Assembly: GCA_033439295.1 (NCBI GenBank) | Contig: JAVTLE010000005.1 | Location: 3,026,501 to 3,090,500 of the forward strand | Length of the DNA: 64,000 nucleotides | DNA from: Deuterostichococcus epilithicus | Taxonomy: Eukaryota > Chlorophyta > Trebouxiophyceae > Prasiolales > Stichococcaceae | Direction of reading: 5' to 3' | Shown here: positions 1 through 48,600 of the stretch, piece after piece | Layout of the letters: each line of letters begins with the position of its first letter | Position numbering within the stretch: the stretch's first letter is position 1 | The notes under the pieces: model-generated | Databases searched by the model: none | The model's input: the letters and a program-made list of their open reading frames with translations, nothing else | What the model was told of the DNA's origin: nothing | Program-made: the position numbers and the translations under genes

Positions 1-3000
1 CTGAACCATGTCGCCTACATGACAGCATGCTCAGATGCAAGCGAGCCTGTTCAACCCTTCTCGGCGCCTGCAGTAACCTAGCAGTGAACCGAGAGGCGCT
101 CACTCAGCCAATCTGCAGCAAGGCAGACGGCCACGTCTCAGTCTTCCCTGCGCCTGCAGGGACTGCCGTCGTTCGAGGAGCTGATAAACCCCGTGCGCGG
201 CGGTGGCGGCAGCGGCGGCGACCAATTTGCCATGGGCGGCGCCAAGCGGACGAAAGTGCTGGCGCTGACGCGCAAGTTCGTCGCCAGCGCCGCCGTCAAG
301 GACCAGGCGCTCGCGCTGTACGTCAACGCCCAGGTACAATGGCGGTCAAATGCCGGCGTGTGTGTGTGATGCAGGTGCCTTGCGGCAGCGGCAGCACTGC
401 TGCCGCCTGCACATGAATCACCAGACGCCTGGGAGGGGAGCCTGACTTCCATTATGCGCTGAACGAGTCGCTGTGGCTGCTCGGCACTGCCGAAGCTGCG
501 GCGGGTGAGTCCCTTTCGGGGGGAGACCCAGAGACCAGGAGGCTGAGCCGGCGAGACGGCTCGGATTGGCTTGAACAGGGACAAGCGGGGAACGTAATGG
601 ATGTGGCGCTGTGAGACAGCGAATGCAATGCCCCAATATACCGCCTGATTGCGCAGTCTCTCACCTGCAGCTGTACGGCCCGGCGGCGGCGGCGTTCCGC
701 AAGCGCCTGCTGCGCGGCATGACGGCGGGGCTGCAGGACGCTCTGCTGGCGGCACAAAATGGCGACGCCGTGGAGGACCTGCTGTTCCCCTATTTTGCAG
801 AGTTTGCGCTGCACACCTACCCCGACGAGATCGCCGCCTACCGGTAGGCCGCCAGCCCTCTGCTCAGCCGTCATCTGCTCAGCTCTAGTCCTTGTGCGTC
901 AGCAAGTGCGCTCTGGGTGTAGCGTGCGCTGCCGCCACCACACCTTGCGGTGACAGCGGCCAGCGATCGGAGCTGGCGCCTCTGAACACTTGCAAAAAGG
1001 ATGGGCGTCCGGCGCGACGGCTAGTCTCTCCGACCCATCAGCTGCAACCGGGTCAGTGCGACCACGCCGCAGGGAGCTGGTCAAGACAGTGGACCTGCGG
1101 AAGCCGCACCAGTGGTACCCCATGGCGCGCGCGCTGCAGCGCCGCATCATCTACCACGCCGGCCCCACCAACAGCGGCAAGACCTTCCAGGCGCTCCAGG
1201 TGCCGCGCACCCCCTCGTTTTCAATCGTTTTCACGCTCCGCCTGGCCGTCCCCGCTCACACAGTCTGTCAAACAAGATGCCGTTCTTGAAGCTGCATGCC
1301 CGAAGGCATTTTCGTAGCATTGCGAGGTACTTGTGCGGCCCTGGTCGACTTTACAATTGTCGCCGGGCGCGCCACCCGCGGTAGTAGTAGAAGCGGTCTC
1401 CAGGATCGCTGCTTCATGGCTGCCGCATGCGCTCCCAGGCGATGCTGGGGGCGAAGGAGGGGCTGTACTGCGCACCGCTGCGGCTGCTGGCCATGGAGGT
1501 GGCCGACGCCTGCAACGCCGACGGCACCTTTTGCACCCTCATCACAGGTGCGCTTCCCCCGTCCGTCCAAGGTGACTGCCGCGTGGTGATCTGTAGCAAC
1601 AGGCCGACAGCTGCGCCCAGGCCAGTCGAGGCTTTGCACAGCCGCACATGGGTGCAGGGCCCCTGCATGGGCGTTACCCAATCCGGTCCTGGGCGAGCAC
1701 CTGTCGGCAAGGGGTCCGGAGGTACGGGTTTGTGCTGGGCGGGCTGATCGACGTCGGCGCCCATGGTTGCGTGCAGGACAGGAGCGGAAGGTTGTGCCTG
1801 GGGCGGGCCACACGGCGTGCACCATCGAGATGGCCGACCTGGGCACCCGCATCGACGTCGCCGTCATCGACGAGATCCAGGTAAGAATCATCAAATACAG
1901 AAACAATTTAAAAACACATCGACGATGCCGTCATTGACAAGGTCCAGGTGGCCGAGCTCGCCAACCGAGCGATCTGTCGGCTGATGGGCTGTCACGGCGG
2001 GGCTGCTGGGCCAGCCGTCGGAATATTGTTTTGTAACCTAGATATGACAGCTGGCGACCAGCAAACTTGACTGCCTCTGGGTCGGCGCCCAAGGCATCAG
2101 CATCAAAGTCGCGGTCCCGGTCACATCTACGCTCAGTTCGCTGAGCGGTTCGATCTCTGAGTCCCGAACCATCATCTGATCATCAAAGGTCCATGGTGAT
2201 GCCGCTCGCAGATGGTGGGTGACGAGCAGCGGGGCTGGGCGTGGACGCGCGCGCTGCAGGGGCTGCCCGCCAACGAGCTGCACGTCTGCGGCGACGCCTC
2301 CGCCGTGCCCCTGGTGCGTTTCGCTGGGGTCTAGGGTGTAGTGTGACCTGCCTGCCGACGAGCCGTACGTGTGCGGCTCCGCAAAGCCCTGGTGCGCTCA
2401 CCTGCCCTCAGGGTGGCTTGCGCTCGCGCTGGCTCCCGCAGCTGTGTGCTGCCATGGCACGGCGGCCTGCCTGCGCTCTGGGCAAGAGTGGTCCGTGCCA
2501 GAAGTCTCGGATGCCCTTGCACTTGCTCCAGAATCATACCTGCAACATCGCTGCTCTCAAAGCTGCTTCCCGGCCCCAGTTGATGCAAGTGCGGCGTCTG
2601 TGCCCGGAGATGGGGGTGCAGGTGGCAAGGTCTCACGTGTACACCGACCCCAAAATCTCAGAACAAGTTTGTGCATTCGTTGAGCATCCCACGCGGCCGG
2701 CGCAGGTGCGGCAGCTGTGCGCGGAGATGGGGGAGGAGGTGGAGGTGCGCAACTACGAGCGCTTCACGCCCCTGGCTGTGGAGGCGGCGGGCCTGCGCGG
2801 CGGCTACCGCCGCGTGCAGCCAGGCGACTGCATTGTCGCCTTCTCCCGCAAATCCATCTTCACCATCAAGCGGGTAAAAGCACTTGAAGAACCGAGCCCT
2901 GATGCTCGGGGTTGTGGTTGGACCACCTGCCAAGAGGCGGCACAACTGCAGTCAGGTCGATCTTGCGTCCCTCATTAACGCTGCTGTTGCTGCAGTTGCA

Positions 3001-6000
3001 GCAGGCGGCCCCGATGCCGCTGCAAGCGAGTTGGGCGCAAAGCGCCACTTTTCCGCCCGGACCTGGGTGGTCCGTCCAAAGCATTGCTGTGCTGCCCGCT
3101 GCAGATGATAGAGGCGACGACGGGGCATAAGACGTGCGTGGTGTACGGCGCGCTGCCGCCGGAGATGCGCCGCCTGCAGGCCCGCCTGTTCAACGACCCC
3201 GACTCCGACTATAAGGTGCGTCTTCGATGGGGATTATGCCCCCGGGGGGGGGTTGAGGGCTCAGTGTACAGCTCCTGTGCTGCAGCAGTGGGCGCAGGGT
3301 CAGGAGACGGCAGCGGCCTGTCTGGGTGCAGCCCCGTTCAAAGTGGTCGGGGATGATGCAGAGACCGGACCTGTGCCAGGCGGATGTCTGAAGATGCGAT
3401 GCCTGCTGACGGGGATGCGCTGCTGGCGGCAGGTGCTGGTGGCTTCGGACGCAGTGGGCATGGGGCTCAACCTCAACATCCGGCGCATCATCTTTCACTC
3501 CCTCAACAAGTTCGAGGGTGCGCACGCCCTTCTTGTCGATTCTGGTTACCCTCCAAACTCCGTTCACATTCATGGACACTGCAACACGCATGTCCAGGGT
3601 TGTTCGCCGCCCTTGCAGGCCATGCAGGGTCGGCGGTCAGCGCCTGCCGCCGCATCGTCGGTCACGCGTCTCGGCCAAAGCTGCAGTGGAGATTCACACA
3701 CAAGCGAACCAGATGAGTAACATAAAAGCAAACCAAATTTTATGTACCCAGAACGACTGACCCTGCTCACCGATTGTGCGCCGCAGGCAAGACGTCGGTG
3801 CCGGTGAGCGTCAGCCAGCTGAAGCAGATTGCGGGGCGCGCGGGGCGGCGCAACAGCGTGTGGGGCGAGGGCCTGGCCACCTGCCGCATGCGCAGCGACG
3901 TGCCCGCGCTGCAGGCGGCACTCGCGGTGCCGCTGTCGGAGATGAGCACGCCGAACGCGGGCCTCTTCCCCGAGTTCGAGCACCTAGAGGTTTGTACGCC
4001 CCTGCGCTCCTGCAAGGCGCCAAACTTCACGACAGTGCGGCGGGGGTTCAGAGTTCAGGGTTGGCGGCGGCGTGCCTCGCCACTGGCGTTTGCCTTGTCG
4101 GGGTTGGCTTGCGTTGGTCGCTGCGCCTTCGAGCCAACGATAGCCTAGGCTGCCAGACCTCGTGCAGCGCCTGGCCTCCCGCCTCACGGTCGGTTAGCCG
4201 TCTGCGCTCGCCGCCGCAGGTATTTGCGGGGCAGGTGCCGGAGCTGAGCTTCCCAGAGGTGCTGACGCGCTTTGGGGAGGAGGCGCGGCTGGACGGCACC
4301 TACTTCTTCTGCCAGCAGGACTCCGTCATCGCCATTGCCAAGCTGCTGGAGCAGGTGGGGCGGGTCCAGGGGATACTAAATTCGAATTGCGTTAGTCTTT
4401 AATCCAGGAAATACTGAGTCCAACTGGACTTGTAATCGCCTGGCGGGTCGCAGCGCCTCTGAACCTCCTGTGCAGCTGGTTGCAGAAAGTTCTGCGTGGC
4501 TTTCCAGTGGGTGGCGGCGCCCATGTCTGCCGCCAGCATGCCGCAACTCGGTGGCCGCTATGAATCAGCATCTGGCTGTGTTCCCACCGAGCAAACCACG
4601 GGCGGCCCTGCATATAGCGTCACCGCAACAGTTGTCGGACTCAACTGCACAGTCAGATTTGCCCAAAAACCATCCGTCGGCCGTCGGGGAACTTGAGGCT
4701 GTTGCGCCACCATGTCCGCGCAGGTGCGGGGCCTGTCGCTGGCGGACCGCTTCACCTTTGCGATGAGCCCCACAAGCACGCGCAACCCGGCGGCGAAGGC
4801 GGCGCTGCTGTCGTACGCGACCGCCTTTGCCGACGAGCGGCCGGCGTCGCTGCGGGTGCGGGTGCCGGCCGCGGCACCGGCTTCGCCCGACGAGCTCAAG
4901 ATCATGGAGGGCTCCTACCAGGTGCGGACGTGAACAGCCGCCGGCACCTTGAAGCGACAGCCGGGCCGCGGCGCAGCCTGCTGTTGCGCAGGTTGAAGCT
5001 GGCGGCCAGGTCCTTTTGGATGCGGCAGGCGTCTGGACGCCGGGGCGTGCAACCCTTTGCCGCGGTGCGCCCGCACAGGTGGCGGCGCTGTGGACGTGGC
5101 TGTCGCTTCGCTTCGGCGAGGAGGCGTTCCCGGGGCGGGAGGCGGCCGCGCAGACATCGCGACGCCTCGTGGCGCTCATGGAGCAGGGCCTACAGGTGCT
5201 GCTTCCAGCTCCTCCAGCTCTTGCCTGCTCCGCACAACCTTGCGTGTGCCACTGCTTTGGCGCCGCCTCAACCATGCGCTGCCATGCATACGCTACCGTT
5301 CCAAACTTCAAGCAAGAAGCCGCTCACTCGTTAGGAAACCGCCCTGCGACACAATGCTACCAGTGCCATGCAACGACACCACAGCTGTGGCTGTGCGCGG
5401 CAGGCGCTCAGCGAGCAGCACGCCAGCGAGCTCACGCAGGACGAGGGCCGCCGGGTGCGGCGCCGGGAGCGGCGCGGCGGCGGCGGCGGCGGCGGATCCA
5501 GCGACAGCGACGCCGAGGAGCCCGCGCAGCAGCAGCGCGGGAGCCGCCGGCAGCACCGAGCTCGCCGCGATGTCAACAGCGCCGGCGGTGGCGGCAAGGG
5601 CGCTGGCTCCGAAGTTCAGCAGGCAACGGCAAAGCCCCGCGGGCAGCCTGCCGCAGCACCCGAGCGCGGCCGCATCTGCTCGCGCGCGCCGGCTGACGCC
5701 AGCGGAGACGAGGGCCCACTGCCGGAGGGAAGGTTAGCATCAGTGCAGGGCACTGGCTGGGAGCTGGGGACGGCGCTGGGAGGCAGGGGCGGCGGCCGAC
5801 AGGGCGGCGCCGCACAGGCTGATGCCGAGTGGCCTGGCTTTGACAGCAGCCGGCGCGTGGGGCCCATGACCATGCGGCCGGAGGCGGCTGCCGGCAGCGG
5901 CCGCGGCAGCATCGCGGCGGGCTCAGGCCCGCGTGCTGCTGCGCGTGCAGCACAGTATGGCGACGCGCCCGCCGTTGGCGCGGCGCAGCGGCAGCGTGCC

Positions 6001-7451: not shown

Positions 7452-10400
7452 ATGAGCTCGTCCGAGCCAGCGGGTGGCCAGGACAGCAATGCTGCAGTCG
7501 AGAAGCCGGCGCGGCCGCAGCCGCTGATAGGCGTCAAGGTGCACTGCACCGGGCTGGATGCTGAGCAGCGGGATGCGCTGCGGTCGCATGTTGAGGGCCT
7601 GGGCGGCGCCTTCCAGAGCAAGATGGACCTGAAGGACTTTCCAAATGTGCTTGTTGCCCGCTCCGTGGTTTCGGAGAAGTACAAGGTGAGGGGGACCCCG
7701 CTGCTGCAGCGCAGAGGCAGATGCTCTGGCAAGCCCGCGTGTGCGTACTCCGCATCAGCCCATGCAGCCTGTGATGCTGCTGCTGCACCTCGTGAAGTAT
7801 GCGCCGAGTTCGGATTGTGCACCGTGCGCAGTTCTGCTGGAAACAAGGCATCCCAGTGGTGGGCCTCAGTTGGTCGGCCGCCTGCTGGGCATCCAAGCGC
7901 CTGGTGCGACATCCGCATGTTCCCCTTCTACCTGCCTGCGCGAGCGCGCTCCACACATCTGCCTGCCACCTCCGGCTGCACAGATGTCCGCGCTGCTCAT
8001 CAGAGCGCGCCTCACACCAACTTTTCAGGATCATGGCGGCAGCAGCTGAGTCCGCCTTGGTGCAGGAGCCCGTGGCGCCGCACCGCCTGCTGGCGCTGGC
8101 TGGCACGCGCATCAGCTTGACCGGCTTCCACCTGGACACAAAGCGGCGGCTGGGGGCGCTCATCGAGCGCGGCGGGGGGCAGCACTCCGCCGAGCTGAGC
8201 AAGGACTGCACCCACCTGATCGCGGAGGCCACCACCAGCGACAAGCACAGGTGCGACGGCAGCATTGTACTCCGGCAGGAACACAACGCTGCTAGTATTG
8301 CGGCTGCAGCGGTGTTGCAGACGGTGGGGGAGCCGCTCGGAGTCTGTTCATGTTCTCAGTCCAGGGTCAAGCCTGTCGCTCATCAGCTTGCCGGCGCAAC
8401 AGACATCATCAATGTGGTGAAGCCGGCGAGCCGTGGAGTCTCGTTGCAAGCCCACCGCCTGCTGAAGACTGCGGCCCGCTTCAACTCCCCCCTGCAGGGC
8501 GGCCGTGGCATGGGGCACCATCGAGATCGTGACTCCCGCCTGGCTGAAGGCCAGCGTGGAAGCCGGCGCTGCTGTGGCGCCCGACAAATTTCGCATCCCA
8601 CCCGCCGGCGGTGCCCAGCCCAGCAGCGGGCGGGCGTCGGCCGCCAGCAACGGCAGCGCCGCGCCGGCGCCGGCGGTGGGCGGGCGGCGGAGGCAGACGC
8701 CCGCCACCTCGACTGCTTCCGTTGGCCTGGCCAGCCGCGTGTCGGAGACAGAGCCGACGGCCGAGGCCGGGGCGCCGGTCCCGGCGCCGCCACGGCAGCG
8801 CCGCCAGGCGGAGCCTGCGACCATGTGAGTGTGGGCCAGGATGCCAAGACCCTGTCCCCTCTGTATCGTAGAGCCTCGCAGGCTTGACTGAAGTGGATGC
8901 AGAGGCTGCCCTCAAAGTCAGAAGCGTTACAATCGCCGGCCGCAGTGACTGAAGCAGCACAGCAAGTCGTCCCATGCATCACAGGAGCAGCGCGGCGGCC
9001 GCCATTAGCGCCGGCACTGGCGCAATGTCCGGCGCGCCGTCTGCGGCGGAGCCCAGCCGTGGCGGCGGCAGCGGCGAGGCCACCTCCAGCGGCGGCGGGC
9101 CGGCGCGCGCGTCGCAGCTGTGCGGCGGCTGCAGCCAGATGTCGCAGGGCGGGACCCGGCCACGGGGCAAAGGTGGGATCGCCGCCCGCAACGATGCTGC
9201 ACGTCCGGCAAGCGTCGTGTGCATGACATAGCTTGCATTCCTGGGCAGTGAGTGCGCTCTACTGGTGTCGGCGCCGAAGCGGCTGGGCAGCGAATGAGTA
9301 CCCTGGCTGCCATTGAGCACCAAGCCGACCAAACACCCTGGAAGGGAACAGAGTCACATTGAGTTGATGTCTCGCTGCTGTCCACATTCCTGACAGGCAA
9401 CTACCTTGGAGGCGTGCGCCTACACCTTGCGGGCTGCGAGGGCGAGGAGCGCACCCAGCTGCGCGTAACTTGCCGCCATGGCAACGCCCTTGTGCACACC
9501 GCCCTCGGCCCCATGCTGCGCTACATCGTGGTGCGTTCCCTGGGCAGCTGCTCCCGTGCGGTTCCCTGAAGTCCTGACGCTTCTGATTCGATATTTCTCT
9601 CGTGCTGTCCCCCGTCGCTGCTGCAGTATGTCGGGTGCTCGTGCGGAGTTTTGTGGAGGGGGCAGGGGGAAGGCTGAAAAGTGCGCCTCACTCCCGCAGC
9701 GGCCTCGCAGTGAGTGACAGCTGTTTGTGGGACCGTGCCATGTGATGACCCCCACGACAAGGGCCATCGCTGCTGCAGGTGGGCGCCACGCCGAGCGACA
9801 AGGAGCTTGAGGGCGTGGCGAAGCACATGGTTGCGCACCGCGGCAGCTGCGAGGTAGTGGCGGCGGCGTGGCTGCAGGACTGCGCTGAGCAGCGGCGGCT
9901 CGTCGGCACGAACGACTTCCTGCTTCCGCCGGAGGCGCTGGCCTCTGCAAACTGCTTCCGGCAGGTCAGCAGAAGTACACCCCAAAGGGCCCTTGGCATG
10001 TGCCTATGTGCAACAGCGCTAGCGCGGAAGCACTGACGCCACCATTTGTGGGGTGCTGTCAGGCACAGAGAGCCGGTTTCCATGCCGCCATAACTGCGGC
10101 GTCAGGATTGGCGCCGTCGGGTACAACAGAGCTGGCACGCTGCCCAACCATGTGGTGACTTGAAACTCAGCCTGAAATTCATGCTTGGAGGTGCGTTCCT
10201 GCAGGCCGCCTTGACAAGGGGATGGGGCATAGTTGCGGAGCCGGCGGGGGCTGCGGAGGAGGCCACCCGCGATTTGGCCAGCGCTGGTGCCGCCACTGTT
10301 GCCTCAAAGTGAGCCCAGTCTGCGTCTCGGTTTGCCATCTCCGTTGCTTCATGCGTGTGCCTCTCTGAAAACTTCCATCATGTTGGCGGTCGCAGCCTGA

Positions 10401-13400
10401 ACGCAGGCGTTTTGGCTGCTGCAACTGAGGCGGCCATGCAGACACGGCGGCCCTACGCAGGCCCAACCTCCAACTTTGTACTAGCAGCGAAGACAAACTC
10501 GTCGCCAGCAGCTCGCTGTCCGCTGTCCCGCCAAGCGGCCGCTAGACGGCTGCTGGTTCACGCAAAGCGTGCCCAAAGCCCCGGGCAGGGCAGTCAGACA
10601 ATCTGCATCATCATCAACGAGAACGACTTGCCCACGCCCAACCCCCTGATTGCTGTGCCGGTAAGGCGGCTGCTGGACGGCTGCTGGTTCACGCTGGCCG
10701 GCATGGGCGGCAGCCCGCCAGACGACATTGCCAAGGCGGAGGGGCTGCTGAAGGAGGCGGGCGCCCGCGTGTTCGACCAGCACACCGCCGGCCTGGCCAC
10801 CGCGGCGGGGACGCCCGCCAAACTGTGCGTCTCTTCGCATTGGTGTCCGCATCATCTCCGTTTTGTCTCCGGCCTGCCCCTTGAGCCGCGAGCCCCGCAC
10901 AGCGTGCAAGAGCGCGCCTGACAGGCTGCAGGGTGGCCTGGGGCCTTGGCGCGGCCCGAGGCTGGCTGCTTTGATGCTCGCGTCCACCATGCACCTGTCC
11001 CGCCGAGCAGCTGTGCAGTTGCCGTGCATGTGCGTGTGCGCTCTCGTCATGCCTTGGTGGGGAAGTCCTGACGCTGCAGCTAACAGATGTGCTCCCTGCT
11101 GGCGGCAGGTACGCGATGTGCCAGCCCATGGCCGGGTTGACGAGGGAGGATGCTGCAGCGCTTGCTGCGCGGCGCCCAGACTTCAGGCTTGGTGTGCTCG
11201 CCCAGCTGCCCTGTCTCTGCTCTTCGTGTCACGCCGTGCCCAGCCACGCACAGGTCCCAGACCCTAAACCATAGACCCTGCAGCGTTTATTGGTCAATGC
11301 GCGGTGCAAGCCTTCACATCTAGAGCAGCACAGCAGGCGCTCGGCTCCCTGCCCTGCAGCACAGCATGGCACAGCAGGCGCTGGGCTCCATACAGCACAG
11401 CACAGCCGGGCGCCTATCGCCTGCCCGGCCTCATACATTCGCTGCATGACAGCATGCGCCTTGATTGAGTCCCTTCCTGAAGCTCAGGCTGAAGGCTATC
11501 AAGCCACAGGGCGAGGTGGCGGAACAGCAGCCGTGCGGCATTGCAGCGCTGGGTGGAAAGATAGCCCACAAAGGGGACCCCTGCCAGCACCCTGCCAGAG
11601 AGAGCTGACCTGCGGCTTTGGAACCCTAAACTTTAAAACCCTGGGGCGCAGTGGCGGAGGGCAACCGCGTGACGCCGCGCTGGGTGCGCGAGAGCATGGA
11701 GGCGGGCGCCCGGCTGCAGCTGACGTCCGTCAACAACCGCCTCATCTACCGCCCACTGCCCTTCCGGCTGCCGCTGCGCGGCATGGAGTCCATCCGGTGC
11801 GGTTCGATGCCCTTCTGTTCCCACAGCAAAGGCGACAGGCGTGATGCCTGTGACGCCACCTGAGAAAGTCTGTCACAAACGAAGCATATTCGACCTTCGA
11901 GCCAGTCTGCACGTCTCGAGGCAGGCTGAGCGTGAAGCAGGCTCGGCCCCCGCAGCAGGGTGGCTCGGCGCCCCTTGCGCGCCTGCAGGCTGTGCGCGAG
12001 CCCGAATCGGCGAGAGGAGCCCGCTCGGCCTGGCACCGGCTCAAAGCTTGTATCAAAGCTTGCATCGGACGCCCGTCTGAGGAGAGGGGCTGTGTCCTTT
12101 GTGTCGCCACAGGCTGTGCGCGAGCGTGTATGGGGAGGAGGAAAAGAGGTACTTGGTGCTGCTGGCGCACCTCCTGGGCGCGCGCTTCACCCACGCCATG
12201 AAGACCACCAACACGCACCTCCTGGTGATTCTGCGTTCCCACGTTCAACCTCCTCAGTTTCCCTAAGTAGCCCCTTCCCCGTTGTCGCCCTTACCCGTCC
12301 CCCCTTCCACACACCTTTCGCCTGCTGCCTCCCCCTTGCCCTCCTTCGGTAGCAGCCGCAGGAGTCCATGCTGCCTGCTGGGTCGCCCAAGAGGATGCCC
12401 CAGTCCGGGGGGCGCTGCTCCATGGCATCATGAGAGAGCTTTCAGTCAGGCAGTTGGTCGCCTGCTGCGGCTGAGGGCCTCGCTGGGGCTGCGCCCCTTG
12501 CCGCATTGGGTCCCACTGCTGCAGCTGCCTGCTGGATCAAGTCTCAGGATGTCTGGGGCGACACAATGTGCCTGCGCCGCTCACCACTCCTGGCACCCCA
12601 GCCTCGACACGGTCACCTCTGGGGCACTGCCGGACCATGACCTCAACCTCCAATGGCATCTTGACTCCGCAAGCAAGATCCCAATTCGTTTCAAACGTGT
12701 CTGGTGCTTACGAAGTTTCCCTCGCTGCGCAGGTGCCGCGGCGGGTGGGGGAGAAGTATGCACGAGCCTCCACCTTTGGCGTCGTGCCCGTCGTCGCGCA
12801 GTGGCTGATCGATGCCGCCATCCATGGCTCTGTGCGTCTCAAGTCCACAGCCATACCTGTTTCCACTTTTCTCCACACCGGTTGACACTGCCTCCTTGGA
12901 GCGTACGCGTGTTGGGGCATTGGGAAGGGAAGTCGCTTCATGCGCAGGTGGCAGTGCACAGGCACTGTGCAATGCCGCAGCTCAGGAGGAGCGCCTGTTG
13001 CTGGGTGCTGTCGTGGATGCTTGATGGAGCACCCACCCCGTGCAGATGCCGGACCCCAGGGCCGACAAGTACCGGCCGGGCCCGCCGCTCGACGACGAGC
13101 AGGAGGCGGTGCCCGCCACCACACAGGTACCACATCCTCATTGCATGTTTCGCAACCTTTGCAGCGATTGCTGATCTGCTACCTGGACAGTACTTGCTGA
13201 TTTGCTTCTGCGGCGAGGGGCGACCGCCTGTGTTCTGGCGCTCATCTTTCGGGCAGGAACCCTCACAACTGGCGCTGCCGTTTTGGCTTCCCACATGTTT
13301 TCGACAAAGTGCAATGGTGCTGCTCTGGAGCCAGGCCGCCAGCATTGCGTGGGGCGGACTGATGCGCTGGCAGCTGAGCCAGTAGCCTGACAGTGACACT

Positions 13401-16257
13401 TTCGTGGCTGGCAGGTGCCGGCGGGCGTGCAGGCACAGGTGGACAACACACAGGGTGCCAGCGGCCCCCGCGCCAACTTGACCGACCGCTTTGGCGAGGT
13501 GTTGGGTGCGCAGCGAACTCTCGTGCTGGAGCCGTCACCTGACTGCGCTGGCAGGAGCTGCGCACCTACTGTTTGCTGCAACACCTGCTGCAACACCTGT
13601 TGCTGATCGGTCCGTTGATATCTGTCATATACTTCGTCTAATTGATCATAATTGAGACAGACCTGGGCTCGTGTGGCAGGGCCAGCACAGGGCGGCGCGG
13701 CGGCAAGGGCAGGTGCGCCGCCGTCCGGCTGCCTTGCTGAGCGCGACCGCAACTGTCCGCCACCCATCCCGCGTCCATCGCCCCGCCCACCACGTACTAC
13801 AACAGCCCACCTCTCGATGCAACTAACGGCCCACCACATGCCACTTGCCTGAGCCGCAACCCGGCATTCGTACACTGCAATATGCTTGTGACAGCGGCTG
13901 CACCCGGCCATGCCTGTAAGATGGCTGCCTGTGCCGCCTTTTAACTGCCTTGTTGCTGCCGTAAACATCTAGTCTGCCGCCGCCCAACGTCAGGAGCTGC
14001 TCCTCCCGCAGAGGCGCTGCGAGGCGATTGCTCCCAGGAGGCGGCGGTGCTGACGGCGCGACCTGCGGCGGCGGGGGCGCAAGTCTCAGCCGATCGGGCG
14101 GGACCAGCCGCAGCGATGAGCGGGGTTGCAGCTGCCAACGGGGCGGGCATGGCCGCTGCGGCGCCGACGGTAGCGGAACCGACTTTGGCGCCGGCTTCGG
14201 CGATTGCTGCAGCGCAGCCGGGCCCACCCCCTCAGCCTGCCGCACAGGCAGCCCAGCCGCTGGCGGCAGCGGGAGCAGCGCCTCCNCTGACGGCCGCCCC
14301 CTGCTTGCTGCAGACACACGGGCGGCCACGGCCGCGGCTGCGACTGAGCTGCTGCCGCCGCTGCCATCGGCGCCGCCGCCATCGGCAATGCTGCCCTCGG
14401 CATTGCTGCCATCGGCAATGCCGCCGCCGGCAATGCTGCCACCGGCGACGTTGCCATCGGCAATGCAGCTGCCGCCGGCCAAGCCAAAGGTTAACCTGAT
14501 GGAGCAGCTCCTGGCAGACACGAGCACCCGACGCAGCCGCCGCAGCGGCCGAGCCTCCAGGGCAGCTCAGGGTTCCGGCGGCACACCGTCTGGTGCAGAC
14601 TCGCAGGGCAACGGCGCACCGGCGCTGGTGGCGGCGTTGGGCGGCGACAATTGCGTTGTGGCCGTATCGACGCCAGACGGCAGCAGCGCAGGCGGCGCCG
14701 GTGCGATCACAGCGGCCACCGAGGCTGCTGGAGAGATGCCGCCCCTGCGGCCTGGTGGCAGCAGCGGCATGGCTCAGCGGGCCAGCCTTCTCAGGTGTCA
14801 CACCTGTCGCTTCAAAGCGGCTTGACGCTCTACTGCAAGCATGGCTCAGCGCAGAAGGGGATGCATAGCAACAGTGTGCCGGCAAGGACGAGCAGCGCAT
14901 GCTGTAATTGCGTCTTCTCCGCTGCAGCAGCCATTGCAAATGCTGAGCTGCCAATGTGATCCTGCAAGACCCCTTGCAACATGCAGGCAAGCCGTCGCAG
15001 CGTCAGCACAGCCAGCAGCGCAGCCGGCGGCGCAGGCTGCGAGCGTGCCGGGCCAGAGCAGCGACGCGCCAGATGCCGCTGCCCGGGCAGCCGCAGCGGC
15101 TGCGGCGAGCTGCGGCGACGGCGGCGCCGCCAGCCGCGATGAGGCGTCCTTAGACGTGGACTGGGCGTGTCTCGAGGGCCTGGTGGAGCGCAGCAGGGCA
15201 GCCGCGGCCGCAGGCGTGCCGCCGCGATTTGTTGACTCCCAGACGCAGGACTGCCCAATGGGTGCGTACGAGCCCCAATGACTGAGTTACGCAATGACCC
15301 AATGCAAGACTTTGCATGTTCCAGACCCTGACAGTTATATGCTGGCTGACAAGCGGCTCCGCATTGGGAGATGCTGCTGCGGATAAGGTGTCCTGTTGCT
15401 TCGCTGTGGCTGCTTAGCTGCTCTGCCACCGCTACGGCAGCTGCGACTGTGTGCTTTTGCGGCCCTGACAGCAGGTGATCGAGCAATGGTTTGTCTGGGC
15501 GCAGACGTGCTGCCGGGGCTGCCACCAGACGCTGCTGCCGCAGCCCGGCGCAACAGGTGATTCCTGTCGAATGCTGCACACGTTTGGGCGTCACCTGGCT
15601 CACTGCAATCAAGCGGTTCCTCTTGTCGGACGCTTTCCCGTCCACCGGACCTTGATGGCTGCTCGGCATCATTCTGATCCGTGCTATCGGACTCTGGACC
15701 ATGCACGATCACGCAGGCGACTGAGCAATGGGGACTCAGACAACGGCTCGCGCGGCTCGGGCGGCGGCCGCAAGCGTTCAGGCGGCGCTGAAGCGGCGGC
15801 TGCGGCCGGCCGCGCCGGCAAGCACGCCAAGGCAGCTCGTCAGGGCGATGCTTTAGGCGCCGACGCGGCGGCCGCCTCCCAGATGGTGGACTGCTCGCAG
15901 CAGGTGTGACCAGGAAACAGGGGCGGGGCGCCCGCGGGGGGATGCTGCACAGCGCAGCGTGCTCCTGCAGGCTATGCCAACCTGTCAAGCCGATAGAATG
16001 TGCGACGAAATCGCCAGAATCTGTGTGCAAACACTGTCAACCATCCCTGGCATTCTGCTTGCCGACAGGTCGGCTACGAGGCGTCGGTGCCAATGCGGCT
16101 GGTGACACGGCGGGCGGCGGCAGCAGCAGCCACAGCCGACGGCGCTGCAGAGGAACGCAAGGCACGCATCGCTCAGGCTGTGCGCGCCAGTGGGGCTGGC
16201 AGGAATGGCGGCGGCAGCAGCGGAGGCAAGGCAGCAGACACGGGGTTGATTCTGTGA
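7452..16257 (+). CDS. TOPBP1: Multi-BRCT DNA damage/replication scaffold, TopBP1/Dpb11 type
   Basis: BRCT-repeat scaffold of the nuclear replication-initiation and checkpoint machinery. First exon 7452-7685 starts MSSSEPAGGQD. Later exons: 7832-7903 (GIPVVGLSWSAACW), 8066-8250, 8498-8824 (VTPAWLKASVEAG), 9397-9530, 9779-9964 (EVVAAAWLQDC), about 10206-10310, 10650-10826 (LLDGCWFTLAGM), 11109-11193, 11651-11797 (RVTPRWVRESMEAG), 12113-12223, 12733-12830, 13045-13127 and Ala-rich exons to the end. Each BRCT ends in the W-containing helix typical of the fold; I count about six. Exons 8066-8250 and 8498 join through a split Arg codon. The last exon (16069-16257) ends at TGA and contains VGYEASVPMRLV after an SQ-rich stretch, as in plant TopBP1 tails. 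Position 14286 is an ambiguous base. Some tail exons (13414-15907) are placed by open frame only, and two adjacent genes cannot be fully excluded. Confidence 0.8.
10522..10693 (+). repeat. Exon-start copy in BRCT gene
   Basis: The sequence at 10652-10693, leading into LLDGCWFT, has a close copy at 10522-10562. Both contain GACGGCTGCTGGTTCACG. The offset is 130 bp and the copy lies upstream of the coding version. Confidence 0.75.
11326..11406 (+). repeat. Imperfect tandem repeat in BRCT gene intron
   Basis: Two copies of a roughly 40-bp unit beginning GCACAGCAGGCGCT and rich in CAGCACAG, at about 11328-11366 and 11368-11406, inside an intron. Confidence 0.6.
11509..11691 (+). repeat. Exon-start copy in BRCT gene
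   Basis: The exon start around 11643-11691 (gtggcggagggcaaccgcg...cgctgggtg) has a diverged upstream copy at 11509-11557 (gtggcggaacagcagccgtg...cgctgggtg). The offset is 134 bp. Confidence 0.55.
11986..12160 (+). repeat. Exon-start copy in BRCT gene
   Basis: The acceptor and exon start cag|GCTGTGCGCGAGC at 12110 is matched exactly over 16 bp by an upstream intronic copy at 11986. Similarity then decays over about 40 bp. The offset is 124 bp. Confidence 0.65.
13574..13597 (+). repeat. 12-bp tandem duplication
   Basis: TGCTGCAACACC occurs twice head to tail, with a third partial unit following, in an intron of the BRCT gene. Confidence 0.8.
14286..14286. other. Ambiguous base (N) in BRCT gene coding region
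   Basis: A single N lies within a Ser/Ala-rich coding stretch. The surrounding frame is maintained, so it stands in for one base. Confidence 0.95.
14361..14466 (+). repeat. Coding 15-bp minisatellite in BRCT gene
   Basis: About seven degenerate copies of a 15-bp unit close to GCCATCGGCAATGCT. In the coding frame it gives a repeating pentapeptide of the PSAML/PPAML type, just before the conserved-looking KPKVNLMEQLLAD segment. Confidence 0.85.
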
Positions 16258-16573
16258 TTGGCAGTCGAGGCGGTGGCGCATCTGCAGGCGTGCGGCAACC
16301 AGTAGACAACCTGTTGCGTGGTGGCTAGTCAGCGGATGGTGCGCTATGAGGCGTCCGTAGGAGCTGGCCATATTGGCGGCAGGTTTGACGGTGATCGAGC
16401 TTTTCTGTAAACGAGGGCTGGCATTTGATCTACTGAAAAATCTCTTCCAAAATTCCGGAGCTGCACGTGTCGCCTAGCTGCCTTGGGCCACGTGGTCGTC
16501 AGGCACCCAAGCAGTAAGTTTTGAGCAACTTCCATGTTCTTCGCGGTGTCTTCAGTGTCTCAATTTCGCAGTC
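16258..16573. other. Intergenic region, BRCT gene to PDZ gene
   Basis: About 316 bp. A TGTAA at 16406-16410 is a candidate poly(A) signal for the upstream gene, about 150 bp after its stop. The rest should be the promoter and 5' UTR of the PDZ gene; no core element is evident. Confidence 0.45.
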
Positions 16574-24270: not shown

Positions 24271-27200
24271 TCAGGGCATCCCGTACATAATGCTGGACTT
24301 GACGGCACGCTCGGCAATGGAAGACGGCGTGTTGACGAGGCGTTCGCCGCCGCTGATCAGCCGCGCCGAGGTGATCACGTCCTTCGCCTGCAGCTGCGGA
24401 ATGAGCTCCGTGCCCTGCGCACGACAAAGGCAGGGTTGATGTATGCGCCCTCATATGGAGCTGTGCATGCGAGCCTTTCAGGCTTGCCCCACATGGCAGA
24501 GTATAATCCGGTGGGTTCGAGGAGGGACTCGTGAATGACAATGCTGCGCCAGCTGCATCAGCCACGGTTGTCTCTTTGGAAGCATCTGGCTGTCTGCTGC
24601 TGCTGCGCACCTTGGTCACGTAACCAAAGACGCCAAACTCGCCCTCGTCGAAGCTCAGCCCCGCCAGCCCCGATGACTGCCTATCCAGGCAGCAGCAGCA
24701 GCCGCTTGATAGCGTCTTTGCACGCCTGGTATGCCATGCTGACATACAGAGGCTGTCAACCTGGCAGCAGATATTGCCCCTGCCTGCGCAGCCCGCTCAA
24801 CAGCCAGCAGACTCCAAAAGCGGCGACGGGCAGACCGTCAGACGGCAGACCGTCAGAAGCACAGCTGGATTGCGCCTAACAGCGCGCCTGGCGGCGCAGG
24901 TAGCACCGGCAGCAGCCTTGACACGCCAGGGCTCACCTCATCCGACCCTTAAATCCACCACACCCATCAGCCATCAGACCCAAGCAAACCCTAAGGCTCC
25001 ACCTGTCGAACTTGTAGATGAAGAACTCGTCGGCGTCGGCAGTGCCATCCGCAGCGCCGCCAGGCCCGTGCGACATCGCCAGCGCGCCGTAAATGGACAG
25101 CGGCAGCACCGGCAGCTCGCCGCCGCGCACATCCAGGGGGCTCCGGTACACGATGTCGAACTGGCCGATGGGCAGAATCTCCAGCGGCAGCGTGCGCCCT
25201 GCGGCGCTTGGAAACATGACTTTCTTGCATCCACCAGAACGCCTGCCATGTTGCCCAGTTGGTACATCTGTATGGGTCACGGCTCTCCTGCAGCGCCGGT
25301 GTTCATGGGACGCCGGCAGGGCCTGATGCGCCGGCATTGGTTGTTTGCTTTCCGAACATCGGGGGATGGAATGGTCATGCACCTCCGGAAAAGCCGCCGC
25401 CGGCGAGCACGGCGCCCTGGTCCACCTTGAGCTCGGCATTGGTGTAGGCGCCCTCCAGCACGTTGCGCACAAAGTTGCCCGCCGTCAGCGGCGCGGAATA
25501 ACCGTCCAGCACCAGCGTCAGGCGCGCCTGTGGGGGTGGTTATCATTGTCATGCGGAAGGGTCGGCGGGAAGCGCTGACTGGGGCTGAGGTTCAGCTCGA
25601 CGTGGGGGTGCTTGGACAGGTCGCAAGGTGCGAGCGAGATGGGCAAGCAGGTATCCTGGCAGGGAGGCTAGGACGGACGAGGGCCTGGCTGACCGACCGG
25701 AAAGCCGCCGGCAACAACAGCAGGGTGAGGGCCAGCCAGCGGGCGCTGCCCCCGGCCATGTATGTGACTGTGCACCAGCAGCCGGAGGCGCTTTCGGACT
25801 TCAGACCGGTGGGAGGGCACTAGCGCTGTGATGCAGCGGCAGACATGGAACGCACCTGGCGCTGCGGGCCGCCGCCCTCGTTGGTCACGTAGGCCAGCGA
25901 GCCGTCCGCCTTCTCGATGGTCAGCTCCACCACCGCCCGCCCTGCGCCGCATTGTCACCGTCGGCACACCTCGACAGCAGGGCTACGCCTTTTGGGGCTG
26001 ACGCCATGAGATGCATGGACAAGTGGGGAGCGAGGAGCACATGCCAGCCCGCAAGTTCGCAGTGCCTGCAGCAAGGGCCTCGTGCGGGAGTGGCGCCAAA
26101 AGCGGCGTATTGGCACCGTGCGCAGTGCCGACAGGGAGCTGGGGGCGGCGCACCAGTGAGGTATGTGTACTCCGACAGCTCGCGCGGGATGATGTAGGGC
26201 AGCCCCGGCGCCTGCAGTATCTCCAGTTCCCCCACGTCCCTCAGTACGTCCGCCACCCTGCGGGGACCAGCAAACAGCTGTGACAGCAAGCAAGCCCGAG
26301 CTGAGCACCGCACATCCAGCTCTGCCATGCCCCTCAGCTTCCAACGTCCCTCAGCTCCGACGTGCGCGACCCTGCAGCACAAGGGCGACGCTGTGACAGC
26401 ACCTCAGGCCCACACTGCCGAAGGTTATTGGCAGTATCTCCGACTCCCGTACGTCTCTCGGTCGCGACCCTGTGCGTTGGGCAAGCTGCGCTTTTGACGG
26501 GTGTGATGCAGGTAGGTTGCTGCGTGCAGGGGCGCCAGGCTGTCCCAGCGGCACATTCTGGTCCACACTCTGCACAGGCTAGCTGTCTGAGCAGCGACTT
26601 GGGCGCCCTGAGCACCCTTTCCAAATGGAAGGGCCCTTCCCACGGTGATTAACAGCGACGCCAGCTCACCTAGCGGATACCCAAACCCGCAGTCTGCCAA
26701 GGGAAACGAAGCGCACCTGAATGACACCTTGTCAGGGTTTTGCATGTCGATGACGGCCTTGAGGCGGCGCAGCCCCTCCTGCACGTCCGCCACCAGCTTC
26801 CTGCCTTCTTCCTGCTTCCCTGCAGGCGTCCCCTCCATGACCTGCGCAGACAGACGGGGGTCCATGAGTCCCGCTCGCCGCGTCTCAGGGACACGTGTTT
26901 TGCCTGAGGTTGCAGTGCCTCCTTGCACAGTTCTGGTGCCCTCAACTGAAGTGCAGGTGCCTGCAAAGTCTGGTGTGACACAACGCTGCATGACAGGAAT
27001 ACCACAGCACGAGCAACGTGTCCCGCATCGGGTCAGCATGCGGCACGCTGGAGATTTCGTTATCGTGAACCGCCTACCTTGTCGACCTGGGCCATGGTGA
27101 GCGTAGCGTTGGTTGCATCCTCCGAGATGGCGTTCCAGGGCTTGCGCTGCGGGATGCGCAGCTTGAACTGGATGCTCTCCAGCTTGCTCTGGACGCTGCG

Positions 27201-38834: not shown

Positions 38835-41800
38835 TCACTGCTCGTCAGAGATGGCCTTGCGCAGCTCGAGAGCTTCCGGGCTCAGAAAATGGCACAGCGC
38901 GTTTTCGTACTGCTCCGACAGCTCCTCCACCGACAGGAAGCGCGCAATCTCCAGCAGCTTGGCCGACGCCTCCTGCCGCAGCTCCGGCCTCGCCACCAGC
39001 TGGTCCAGCATCGCCGACGCCTGTGCAGGGTTCAGGGTTTAGGGCTTCCGAAACAGGAATGAGGCTTTGGCAGCGATGGAGGGGTTTGAAGGGCTGCAGC
39101 TTCAGACGCGCCACCAGCTGTCCCAACATTGCTGCCGCCCTTGCAGCTGCGGAGGGGCTCAGAGGTCTCGGGGTCACAGGCCACGCCACGCTGCGCTGGC
39201 GGCCCGGAACGCAGCTGTTGCCGCAACCCCTCATCGACCTTCTCCCTGAGCTCCATGCTCAACTCGACTTGCCTCCCAGCAGGGGATACCAAGTTTGAAA
39301 TCAGCACCCCCTGCTTCCAGTGCACCTCTCAGACCCTTGTGCGCAGGCCTTGAGCCTGAGGTGTCTGCTGCGGCTGTTCCACCCTCGATGAAACACGACA
39401 GCATGTGCATTGGATGCTGGGGCGCACCTCCTCAAGTGTCTCGGCGACCAGCGGGTACCCGAATTCCACCAAGACATCGATGTAAGAGGCGAAGGGGTAG
39501 GTCACCACCGGGATGCCCAGGCTGGCAAATTGCGCCAGCCGGCTGGTGGGCTTGTAGCAGACTGCGCGCAGGGCACACGCGGCATGGGCTGTAATTGGTG
39601 TCAGTCGAGAGTTTCAGGGGCGCTCTGCAGGCTCTGAAGATGCTGCTGTGCAGCTGTCGTTGGAAGTTCGCAGGCGGGCCCACTCGGGCATATGATGCAC
39701 AATTGATGCAGTGCAGCGTGATGTCGCCACTGAGCGGTGCCGTCCGGACGGTCGAGGGACCAGCGACTCACTGTGAAACTGGGTGTAGCCCTTGGGCCAC
39801 AGCACCGCCACGTCCACGCTGCGGAAGCCCTGCGGAAGCCAGATAGACATTAACACATGCGCTGCGGCACCTCAGCTGACGATGTGCCTTGCTCTCCAGC
39901 CCCGGACGCGCGACCGCCAAATGCTGAGAACGCCGCCAGAGAGGTCCGTCCACCAGCGAGCGGCGGGCGCCGCCGGAGTTCAGTTAGGACACTGTTGCAC
40001 AACCCAGAGCTGAAAGCGGCAGGCGCAGCTTCCGGTGCAGGTGGGAATCTGCGGTACGTCCCAGCCAGAAGGCGTCGGGCGCAGCGGCACTTCGGCAGGC
40101 AGAGTCACCCGGAGTGCGCATGGGTCAAAACAGGGTCAATGCATGGCCGTGACATTGGCCAAACCACAATGGTCGAGGCAGGGGTTTAATGCCGCACCAT
40201 GTACCAGCCCTGCTGGGCGCCATAGTTGGGCAGGCCCTCCTGGAGCATCTGCGCATACTCCTGCACCTCCCACCCGCGCCCTGTGTAGTGCCCCGACCGG
40301 AATGTGAGGTTGTTCTTCTGCGCCAGCAGAAGGGCAGCAAGTGCCGTTAGGTCGGGCAACGTCAGGGTGTTGCTCGGCGCTGCCCGCGGCGGAGCCTACC
40401 AGCTCCAGAAGTGGCCGAGGGAGCCGCATGGCCATGCCCAACAGGCCTCCGAGTCTGACGATCAAACAATAACAACCCACAGGCAGCCGCCTGTGCCGGT
40501 GACGCTGGTACTGGCGCCGCTGCAGCGGCTCAGCACCAGGCTGGAACGCTGCAAGTTCTGACGCCGCTCGCGCCCAGCATTGATCAGGTGTTGGATCAGG
40601 GGCAACCTGGCTCCCAGCAGTCAGCAAGAGGTTGTCGAAATCTCGCCCCCCATTTCTTGAAAGGAGCGCGAACCTCGCAGTACTCCTCCAGCATGGGGAA
40701 GATGTCGGAGTCGCGGGAGTGGTAGTCCCCCTGCAGCGCCAGCACCCTGACCGGCGGCGAGCGGTCCGCCCTGTGGAAGTTTGCCTGCAGATGGAAGGGC
40801 AGAGGCATGTCAGGGACAACCTCGCCTGGCAGGCTCCTCGTGCCTGCACGACCCCAGCTTGGAGAATGTCTCAGGGCCCTCGTCTTGGGTGGTGCTGCGG
40901 GGTGTAGAAACGCAGGTAAGCTTCGAGGTGGCGGGCTGACTGGGCTCAGCTGACTGACAGCTTTCTCACTCCGACGCCACCACGCATGGTGCGACACTGG
41001 TGATGCAGTGCCTCAGCGGAGGGGCCCACGCCGATCGGTGCCGAGCTCAGATGTGCGTTTGGAGGGGACAGCAGCGCACGTAGTTGGCGTGGTTGTGGTA
41101 CAGCACTTGGGCGGGAATGCCGGCCTTGTCAAAGGCGACCTTGGCAACGCGCCCTGCCGTCAGAACGCCGGCAAACGCCTCCTTCAGGGGCCACTTGCCC
41201 AGGTCCCAGAAGGGGAAGCCTGCAGGCGGTTGCACGAGGGAGCATGGTTGCTGATCAAATCACGGGAGCAACGACGGCAGGCTCAGGGCGGGCCCTGGCA
41301 GTCACGCAGTGGCGGCGTTGTGGCCGCAAGCTGGCACGGGGGCACCAATGCTGTGCTGCATCTGTGCCGCCAAAACCCAAGAAGGTTTTGTTGTTGCACA
41401 GTGGCCGAAGGAGGCCTCGTGTGAAGGCTCTTGTGGACTCTGGAAGAATTGGTTGCCAGCCACAGCGCACCGTCCCACTCGTCGACATGGTCCCAGATGA
41501 GCGGTACGCTGGAGTTTTGCAGCATCTGGAAGCCCTGCTCCAGCACCTTCACGAACACGATGGCGTCCAGTTTCTCCATGTCCACCTGCCATAGATTTCG
41601 ATTTTCAGGGTTTAGGGGGTCAATCCAAGGTTCGGTGGTTCAATGGATTGGTTGGTTGCGTCCTTCTGAGGGTTGATGGGGCGGTTGTCCCACGACCGGA
41701 CCATGGTTGGGACTGCCTGGCAGCAGTTGATGGGGCGCAACAATGGCCGTCAGGCCAGTACACAGCATCAACAGTTGCTCCAGGTGACCCTGACGATGCC

Positions 41801-45584: not shown

Positions 45585-45630
<46 letters not shown>

Positions 45631-48600
45631 GCGCTTGTGAAGCTCAAGGCCTCGCGAACTGGCTAGCACGTCGTGTGGCAGCCGGTGCCCAGGAAGTGTC
45701 TGCATCCTGGCCGGTGACAGGCTGTGTGATGTGAGGTGACCTGCACGGTGCAGGGAGGTCTCGCTCGGAGCGGCTGCGCATCCTGACGACCGTGGTTGTG
45801 GGCGGCGGCCCCACGGGCACAGAGTTCGCTGGCGAGCTGGCGGACTTTATCAACAGCGACCTCGCCAAGATCGACTCCGAGCGCGCGCGAGACTGCCGGT
45901 CGGTGCATGTTGTGGCAGCGTCAACCCAGCCCTCGAAACTGACTCGTCACATTCAGCCGAAGTCGAGGCCAGCAAGCGAGGGGATGCGCATGCATGATTG
46001 GCATGGCCGCGCGAGCTATGGCCTTGAGACCGCAGCGTCTCGGGTCCTGTGCACACTGATCCCATAGGTTCGAGGCCGCGGCGTGCGCCGCCGCGCAGGG
46101 TGATGGTGGTGGAGGCCAGCCAGCTGCTGGGCAGCTTCGACAAGCGGCTGCGGCAGTACGCCGCCCGCAAGCTCATCAAGGCGGGCGTGCACCTGCGGCG
46201 CGGCATGGTCAAGGAGGCCTACCCGCAGCACATCGTGCTGCAGGCGCGCGTCCTGAACCCTGAACATCCCGGCCTGCGAGCCCCCGCGCGGTCTCTGCTT
46301 CACTTCAAATGTAATCACTACTGCGGTGCTTGTCCAGTGCACGGGTCGGCAGCGACCTGCGGAGGCCTCGCAGGAGCTCATCAAGGGGGCGGTGCCACGC
46401 AAGCACCGGGGGTGACGATGGCCCTCACCAGTCGGCGCGTTGTCGACTGGCTCAGTCAAGCCGAAGGGCGTCACTCCCCAGAGCACACGGCTGCCTGCTG
46501 GGTCCCGATGCCTCGCGAACACTGCTGCATGTGTTTGCAGCCGGGGGCGGAAACTCGTGTGTCGTGTGCACCGCAGACGGGGGAGGAGATACCCTTCGGG
46601 CTGTGCGTGTGGTCCACGGGCGTCGGTCCCACCGACTTCACCACCTCCCTGCCCTTCGCCAAGACGCCCAAGGGTGTGCTACGCCTCGACAGCCGCTGTC
46701 CACTTGTCCCCCCCAGATGCGGAGCTGGCGCCNGCTCCGTGCGGCGCACGAGCGGCTGTGCGGGTGGCATGCACGTGCGACGCTATGAGGCCGGTGCAAC
46801 AGGCCCGTGGCGGCTGCAGCTGCAGTCGCCTCTCCTGCACCTGGCCGCCCTCCTCATGAGCCACCTGCACAGCCGCCACTGCCGCGTTGTTTGCATGCCA
46901 CCCTGTGTTCCCACTCTGCAATGCACAAAAACAAGTCCCACACCGGAGACGGTCCGCTGTGCAGGGCGGCTGGCGGTGGACGACTTCCAGCGGGTCCTGG
47001 TGCACCCGTCGGTGGCGGCGCGCACTGACGGGGAGCACCACTCCGAGGACCCCGCACCTGGGCCCGGCCAGCCCAGCGAGGTATGCAACCGTGGCCGCCG
47101 GCCTGCGACCGCAGTCCCGGACCCATCCGGGCATGCAGGACGAGTCCTGGACAGCCCAATTGCAGGGCGTCCTGTTTCGTGTCACCTCTGCAGACGTCAG
47201 CCGCCGGGGGGGGGGTGCAGGACTCTGGCTCTGCCCTGCACCGAAGATAGACGTTCCCTGGGCCAGACTTGCTCGCCTCCGTCCAGGCGGAAACACCACA
47301 AGTGTCGTCGAAAGTCTCGATGTGCATGTTGTGAACACAAAACCATGCGCTGAAAGCGCCGCTGAGATCGCTGCCGCCGCCGCCGCGCTGTTGTCCATGC
47401 TGCAGGAGGAGCGCAGGCGTGAAGACGAGCCTGCACACACGGCTGAAACAAAAGGACGGCCTCCCTGTACAGAGCCACTGAGCCAGCTGCCGCCGCCGCA
47501 TCGCAGGTGTCGATGCTGCAGGAGGAGCATGGCCATGAGGACGAGCACACGCAGGAGCTGGCTCCAATGAGCGACGCCTACGCGCTCGGCGACTGCTGCG
47601 CGCGCATGGACCTGGCGCTGCCCGCGCTGGCGCAGGTGTGCGGCTGATGTGAACACTAATCGACTGGGCTGCAGGCACTCAAAACATGGTTGACGGCGCC
47701 GAGGTCTGACAGCGGTGAGCGCGCTACGCGACTGATGCTCGCGCATCGGGCCCTGGCGCTGCCAGTGGTGGCGCAGCCGCTGCAACCGCCAAAAGCAGTA
47801 ATCCGTGTGCAGAGAAGAGGCGCAGCGGGCACACTGCGGCGGCTGCTGCGCGCTCAGGGACCCGGCGCGATGGCGCCCGCCGCACGAGCCATGAAAGCCA
47901 CAGCCTGCCCGGGGGATGGTGCTGGGCACCCCATGCAGCTGTCACCCCTGCTCAGGGCGCTGTCAGTGGAGGGCGGGTCGCAGCCTGCATCCGGCACCGC
48001 GAGCCGCCTGCTGCTCGGGTGTCTAGCCTGCGCAGGGCCTAGGGCACGCGTGGAGCCCGCCTCCCGGCACCACCTGCAGCGTGCTGCCGCTCAGCCGCTG
48101 CCGCTCCCGTGCGCGGCACAGGTGGCGGAGCAGCAGGGGCGGTACCTGGCCAGGTGCCTCAACGACGAGGCGCGGGCGGAGGACGCCGGCAGCGTGCAGC
48201 TCAAACCCTTCGTCTACAAGCAGCTGGGTGCCATGGCGTCCGTCGGTGCGCGCCTTGCCCCGTCAGCCGCTTTAGATTTTGGCTTCTCAGTCCAGTTTCT
48301 GTGCTGGTTCGCAACCCTGAGCATGTCGACCGTTGTTCATCGTCTGAAACCAATCAGGCACCATGGCCCGGGCGCATTCCTGTGCCAGGCCTGGGACATC
48401 CAGATCCTGCAAGGAAGGAAAACTGGGTTTGTAGCTGTGTCCTCGCTTGCTCTGATCTGCTGGAGTGAAGATACGCAGCATCCAAGACTCGCCTGCGCCT
48501 GTGCCGAACCCTCGACTGTGCTGCAGCCCTCGCGGGCGTGACCTCTGTCGGAGGCTAGGCTGCTCCCCCGACCATGCCGCCTGTCCGCCCAGCACCGCAA

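Follow-up and report, generated by a model that had tools for sequence, protein, structure and literature searches.

Copies of exon edges in adjoining introns of the green alga Deuterostichococcus epilithicus: probable remnants of tandem duplications across splice junctions

In the potato RNA-dependent RNA polymerase gene, a tandem duplication across the boundary between intron 1 and exon 2 created a new intron, and the passages describing this gene also record an 83-bp duplication within an intron (Ma et al. 2016, PMC4974935). That introns can be gained when a segment bearing splice signals is duplicated in tandem has likewise been described (Hellsten et al. 2011, cited in PMC4974935 and in the review PMC3443670). 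In rice, insertions of 10-1000 bp occur as tandem or partly tandem duplicates, or as copies of sequence from no more than 200 bp away from the break (Vaughn and Bennetzen 2014, cited in PMC7407515), and the passage on these tandem and local duplications ascribes them to staggered nicks, that is, to nick- or patch-mediated breaks (PMC7407515). The present text concerns a 64,000-nucleotide stretch of the green alga Deuterostichococcus epilithicus (GCA_033439295.1, contig JAVTLE010000005.1, positions 3,026,501 to 3,090,500 of the forward strand; hereafter the window) and further sequence of the same genome, in which the starts and ends of exons have diverged second copies in the adjoining introns. 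These copies run in direct orientation next to the exon they match, are anchored at its border, have decayed neutrally and lie in long introns, and one fresh case is still plainly doubled. Most probably they arose when units of about 70-180 bp spanning splice junctions were duplicated in tandem, so that introns became longer and a spare copy was left to decay.

As in the potato gene (PMC4974935), the tandem duplicate crosses an intron-exon boundary. Unlike the potato event, which is described as having made a new intron, the algal events enlarge an old intron according to the gene models, affect both exon edges and involve many genes. With the intron-gain model as presented in PMC4974935 and PMC3443670, the algal pattern shares tandem duplication of sequence bearing splice signals; that model requires an offset equal to the intron length and an exonic AGGT, and the alga shows no such signal. 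The rice duplications offer a plausible lesion for the algal copies, although the passage describing them (PMC7407515) does not tie them to splice junctions and the algal junctions are mostly too old to read. The type of mutation is thus already known and the explanation is an ordinary mutational one. Among the literature matches listed (titles and the beginnings of abstracts, with most subscription papers outside the search), there was no report of such a pattern in green algae, and as far as these matches go, what is new is that many junctions in a single compact algal genome were hit, that the copies go with long introns and that most are of similar age.

The sample covered 314 kb, or 0.67%, of a genome of 46.8 Mb in 21 contigs, and comprised the window, an adjoining 200 kb and 50 kb from a second contig (C1:1000001-1050000, segments L022-L026); negative window positions lie before the window start. 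Introns were modelled with a small home-made gene finder whose seed was SUV3 plus a handful of further window exons and whose self-training used the very 314 kb under analysis. It predicted 48 gene models with 692 exons (median 122 nt) and 644 introns (about 225 bp), and the tests took in the 614 introns of 60-900 bp, giving 1228 exon-intron tests. When the near edge of the exon was compared with the adjacent intron, direct matches scoring at least 42 were found in 24 of 1228 tests and inverted matches in 0 of 1228; at a score of at least 30 the counts were 40 and 5. When exons had to be 140 nt or longer, near edges gave 12 matches in 501 tests at a score of at least 42 and 19 at a score of at least 30, compared with 0 and 1 for far edges. 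Without masking, and at a score of at least 40, the flanking exon matched the intron in 29 of 1228 tests, exons of other introns did so in 15 of 6096, reverse-complemented sequence in 3 of 1228 and the next-but-one exon in 2 of 1080. With low complexity masked, 23 of 1180 tests scored at least 42 against 0.4 expected from exon edges of other introns, and the masking itself cost at least one strong match (window position -93922, score 90 unmasked). A scan in which gene models served just for labels returned 30 exon-intron pairs of at least 42 at offsets of 50-300 and none in three far-offset control ranges, and five dinucleotide-shuffled windows held no comparable repeat pair. Introner elements would be marked by similar intron sequence at many unrelated sites; on this point the coverage is one 192-base stretch, which in the whole genome had a single match, namely itself.

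These comparisons confirm that exon-edge copies in adjacent introns are a real pattern, as an initial annotation of the window had claimed. Nine window exon edges were matched to that annotation by the analyst, since it gave few coordinates, and each was tested against up to 300 exon edges of at least 50 nt drawn from all introns, with draws from the same gene possible. Eight of the nine were supported singly by these single-test p values, the exception being the exon start at 12113 (p 0.14); the direct repeats are plain at the named places. A tenth edge, added at position 8066 of the BRCT gene, gave a ragged match at offset 205 (p 0.008). The initial annotation had named as decisive against it the absence of an excess over controls or of an asymmetry of side, and in the sampled 0.67% of the genome both the excess and the asymmetry were found. 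The second of these, with copies of exon starts upstream and of exon ends downstream, follows from geometry, because, for a unit placed across an exon start, the protein stays as it was only when the spare copy comes to lie in the upstream intron.

Within the copies, the aligned exon part starts at the exon border: the distance is 0 in 11 of 23 cases and the median is 1, where uniform placement would give a mean of 45, and none of 10000 random draws was as small. The matched exon part is 31-67 nt long, and offsets span 67-183 bp where the search admitted 60-260 bp. Among border-reaching copies, the acceptor AG is kept in 6 of 11 cases and the donor GT in 3 of 5 (together 9 of 16). The second copies are in direct orientation and adjoin their source exon, as a tandem duplication spanning the border would leave them. 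If duplication recurred at a border, a second, farther and more diverged copy would be expected, and such copies are present in the NADH dehydrogenase gene (offsets 141 and 255) and at two loci on C1 (118 and 210; 94 and 225); the cyclophilin locus (212, with a weak one at 114) and the locus at 39020 (118, with a weak one at 215) also have two. Both edges of the exon at window positions -7005 to -6875 have copies, that of the start lying upstream and that of the end downstream, and the NADH dehydrogenase exon 47507-47635 is likewise copied on both sides. An offset of 116-118 bp, which had been taken for a regular unit, did not hold up in the larger sample, where it recurs in 1 of 17 cases outside the window with 0.5 expected. 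The copy-bearing set comprises 24 introns in 12 of the 48 gene models; were the sample typical, the whole genome would contain some 3500 copies. Events per intron were 10 of 99 on C1 and 16 of 515 in the C5 stretch (p 0.005), or about three times as frequent per edge on C1; clustering by gene is borderline (p 0.052), and one predicted gene model on C1 carries seven.

The duplication event that the older copies seem to record is itself present before decay at L024 5753-5908 (minus strand, C1), where a young border-spanning duplication was read through as exon by the gene finder. The two copies of a unit that joins the last 34 or so nt of the intron (closing with GGCAG) to the first 39 nt of the exon stand head to tail at an offset of 78, separated by five bases. 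The exon parts are equal at 37 of 39 positions besides a one-base gap, and the intron parts also differ by small gaps. This case bears out the earlier proposal that segments straddling exon-intron borders were duplicated in tandem and that the outer copy decays. Its offset of 78 is divisible by three and there is no stop in between, so that splicing could use either acceptor. Exon-exon pairs scoring at least 30 numbered 12 near one another and 12, 6 and 8 in far controls, so that few other young duplications are likely to be hidden inside exon models.

In the proposed mechanism, segments of about 70-180 bp straddling a splice junction, made up in 23 cases of 31-76 nt of exon and 34-140 nt of intron, would be duplicated head to tail. 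The arrangement neutral for the protein would leave the spare exon edge inside the intron, before the true exon in the case of a start and after it in the case of an end. The intron would gain the length of the unit, the spare copy would then drift neutrally, and splicing at the outer sites would presumably let the duplication survive. The old cases may have arisen like the fresh one, and the initiating lesion may have been staggered nicks or breaks that were filled in and joined, as proposed for rice. On this account the copies show that splicing tolerates a nearby second, initially perfect splice site.

The initial annotation had further suggested that duplication lengthens introns, and intron length is in line with this: introns with events scoring at least 42 have a median of 410 bp against 225 (p 8e-11). 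No edge copy scoring at least 38 was seen in the 123 introns of 60-160 bp or the 173 of 160-220 bp, and there was one among the 145 of 220-280 bp, followed by 4 of 85 at 280-340 bp, 7 of 32 at 340-420 bp, 9 of 27 at 420-520 bp and 3 of 29 above that; pooled, none of 296 introns shorter than 220 bp has one, whereas 16 of the 59 in the 340-520-bp class do. Roughly one intron in four of that class shows a copy, so that length variation in this compact genome may trace to single events. When intron-internal pairs are included, 40.7% of these 59 introns show an exon-edge or intron-internal pair of at least 30, compared with 3.1% in controls. Since one copy is under coding selection and the other drifts, exon-edge copies are dated markers of intron growth, and their recurrence offers a route to studying it.

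A strict preference of duplication for exon edges was considered as well. Pairs scoring at least 42 comprise 30 exon-intron and 8 intron-intron pairs, and these intron-internal counts and a first simulation seemed to favour such a preference; a simulation with neutral decay closes most of the gap. Intron-intron pairs decay twice as fast. With uniform tandem duplication, neutral decay, substitution of 0.20 and an indel ratio of 0.35, the simulation gave 4.1 intron-intron pairs of at least 42, compared with an observed 3 (the 8 minus 5 with offsets of 77 or less). In the range of 30-42 it predicted 13.6 intron-intron pairs against about 11.5 observed above control, and 16.5 exon-intron pairs against about 12.8. 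At substitution of 0.16 and an indel ratio of 0.2, 28 intron-internal pairs are expected and the gap stays. The parameters were picked after the data were seen, and with them uniform tandem duplication with neutral decay suffices for the counts, although a preference for edges may also exist.

The decay of the copies was followed in 27 alignments from modelled introns, 2 simple-sequence ones being dropped. Copy and exon differ at 66 of 423 first, 65 of 422 second and 95 of 420 third codon positions (15.6, 15.4 and 22.6%), and synonymous change in the true exon would account for the third-position surplus. Changed codons comprise 61 synonymous and 122 nonsynonymous ones, and 5 of 401 copied codons are stops. 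The old copies are neutral remnants without coding constraint, and neutral rates of substitution and indel formation are readable from them.

Several observations weigh against tandem duplication across splice junctions as the explanation. The exon borders are predictions of the home-made gene finder alone, which skips stops in intron-split codons (one model contains such a stop), fuses neighbouring genes and has misplaced borders at the fresh case on C1, at a 23-nt exon near window position -6323 and in the BRCT gene, where it opened an exon at 10512 and the start near 10664 was set by eye. Duplication of whole border-spanning units should leave similarity between the intronic flanks of copy and exon as well. 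It is seen (p<0.05) in 6 of 23 cases, with a combined p of 0.0007 in a wider-band test, and older cases with matching flanks include 47355-47390 and L024 5121-5670; all of the flank matches, however, fall among the 14 acceptor-side events, with 0 of 9 on the donor side, and a narrower-band test left just 2 of 23 above the 95% control. Simulation with low indel rates and the divergence that the exon copies themselves show (substitution of about 0.16) gives a flank-match expectation of 0.74-0.91, well above what was found, whereas substitution of 0.22 with an indel ratio of 0.3 gives 0.31. Most old cases are too decayed to read whether the units abut head to tail. Age is a further difficulty. 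Identities in the 27 alignments lie between 0.69 and 0.885, with the fresh case as the sole young exception found, and a process running at a steady rate should leave no fewer young exon-edge copies than old ones. The other recent tandem repeats (Tandem Repeats Finder, at least 88%) are intronic or intergenic, with periods of 51-77 bp; in the 314 kb the program found no array with a period above 77 bp. A further recent pair at offset 205 is 91% identical over 35 bases. That young copies are so scarce could mean either that the process was once stronger or that the assembly collapsed near-identical units of 80-180 bp.

The uniform age could also be read more boldly, as the trace of a past burst focused on splice junctions, now almost silent, from which most of the long introns would stem; the copies would be of nearly one age, and edges would have been hit more than interiors. 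This reading is rather doubtful; were it true, junctions would be preferred and datable sites of intron growth, perhaps via transcription-linked nicks or R-loops. A process specific to exon edges, in which the edge and a few intron bases are copied beside filler DNA, for example by locally templated break repair or from RNA, would fit the limited flank matches and their absence on the donor side, the difference in offset and age between exon-edge copies and intron-internal duplicates, and the similar divergence of the 27 copies. It is nonetheless unlikely, since the fresh case takes in about 34 nt of intron tail and is doubled head to tail, AG and GT are retained in part, some older flanks match, and tuned neutral tandem duplication yields similar counts.

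Retention of the copies for use, as alternative or decoy exons or as splice sites regulating splicing, is very improbable. That 9 of 16 border-reaching copies keep AG or GT could be taken to favour it, but neutral decay at 16-20% per base would by itself leave a retention near 0.65-0.7. Beyond the third-position excess there is no codon constraint, and the stops already noted, together with offsets that are a multiple of three in just 5 of 26 cases, also dispose of the earlier claim that the copies tend to keep the frame. Scars of intron gain by a duplicated AGGT-bearing exon segment (the Rogers model) would involve the same kind of mutation, and the initial annotation had drawn this link; the model's signature, an offset equal to the intron length, was absent at a score of at least 28 (0 of 495 introns) and showed no excess at a score of at least 20 (8 against 5.6 expected), and the majority of copies are placed deep within introns of some 300-700 bp, which makes such an origin highly improbable. 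There is similarly little to recommend an assembly artefact, with two haplotypes or misjoined reads placed in tandem. Single or double Ns are scattered through the sequence, often a few bases apart (window 14285, 46732 and elsewhere on C5 and C1), and suggest ambiguous bases, not gaps; such bases lend the artefact some colour, but the 27 copies are 11-31% diverged, some of them with stops, only short exon-edge pieces are doubled, and the cases are spread over 24 introns in 12 gene models. Chance, codon bias or low-complexity sequence is hardly credible as the source: GC-rich coding sequence does yield some matches, as in the 15 of 6096 controls, and one of the nine window edges is not significant, but the masked count, the 24 direct against 0 inverted matches and the far-offset ranges empty of exon-intron pairs of at least 42 all stand against it.

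Table 1. Copies of exon edges at the window loci, with positions in the window and single-test p values
Copied edge	Position of copy	Strand	Offset (bp)	Remarks	p
SUV3 exon end (true exon 1777-1880)	1917-1947	+	67	26/31 identical, GT kept	0.008
SUV3 exon end (true exon 2212-2313)	2348-2389	+	79-85	6-base gap	0.004
SUV3 exon start (true exon 2706-2873)	2589-2631	+	117	acceptor AG changed to AA	0.007
BRCT-gene exon start (about 10664)	10535-10600	+	131		0.007
BRCT-gene exon start (true exon 12113-12224)	11989-12018	+	124	weak copy	0.14 alone
Cyclophilin exon start (true exon 26154-26257)	26304-26371	-	114	ragged copy	0.07 alone
Cyclophilin exon start (true exon 26154-26257)	26431-26469	-	212	second copy	0.019
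'Glycosyltransferase' exon start (true exon 38896-39020)	39093-39138	-	118	AG lost	0.004
'Glycosyltransferase' exon start 39020	39179-39230	-	215	further weak copy	0.07
NADH dehydrogenase exon start (true exon 47507-47635)	47355-47458	+	116	includes 36 nt of preceding intron tail, AG lost	0.007
NADH dehydrogenase exon end 47635	47720-47776	+	141	139 by gapped banded search	0.007
NADH dehydrogenase exon end 47635	47837-47880	+	about 250-255	second, more diverged copy	0.015

The gene names given initially to the window loci (Table 1) stand in part. Pfam supports SUV3, BRCT and a type II NADH dehydrogenase; the C-terminal family of SUV3 gave no match in an exon-by-exon search of the genome, whereas the joined protein does match the family. 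The product called CYP37 is a cyclophilin that matches the CYP38-like PsbQ domain, and it may be either CYP37 or CYP38. Two fragments of the product called 'glycosyltransferase' have no Pfam match. Four further copy-bearing models were compared with Pfam; for three of them, the gene that bears the copy matches a family above the cut-off (EF-hand, Low PSII accumulation 1 and Cupin_8). In the fourth, a chlorophyll a/b-binding gene is run together with another gene, and the copied exon belongs to the latter, which has a zinc-knuckle match below the cut-off and nothing else.

Among minor observations, a young tandem duplication internal to an intron at L012 9571-9709 (window position -90429) has a period of 69 and 95% matches, and other recent tandem duplications have periods of 51, 53, 62 and 77. 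A single fused model at window positions -4295 to 17848 spans an unnamed upstream gene, SUV3, BRCT and others in 2973 codons, and its gene ends are unreliable; about seven GC-rich units of 15 bp lie in one of its predicted exons (window 14360-14466). In the predicted NADH dehydrogenase gene, a perfect CAG repeat of 15 units (window 45585-45629) reads as polyglutamine in the model exon 45594-45636, which may be misread intron.

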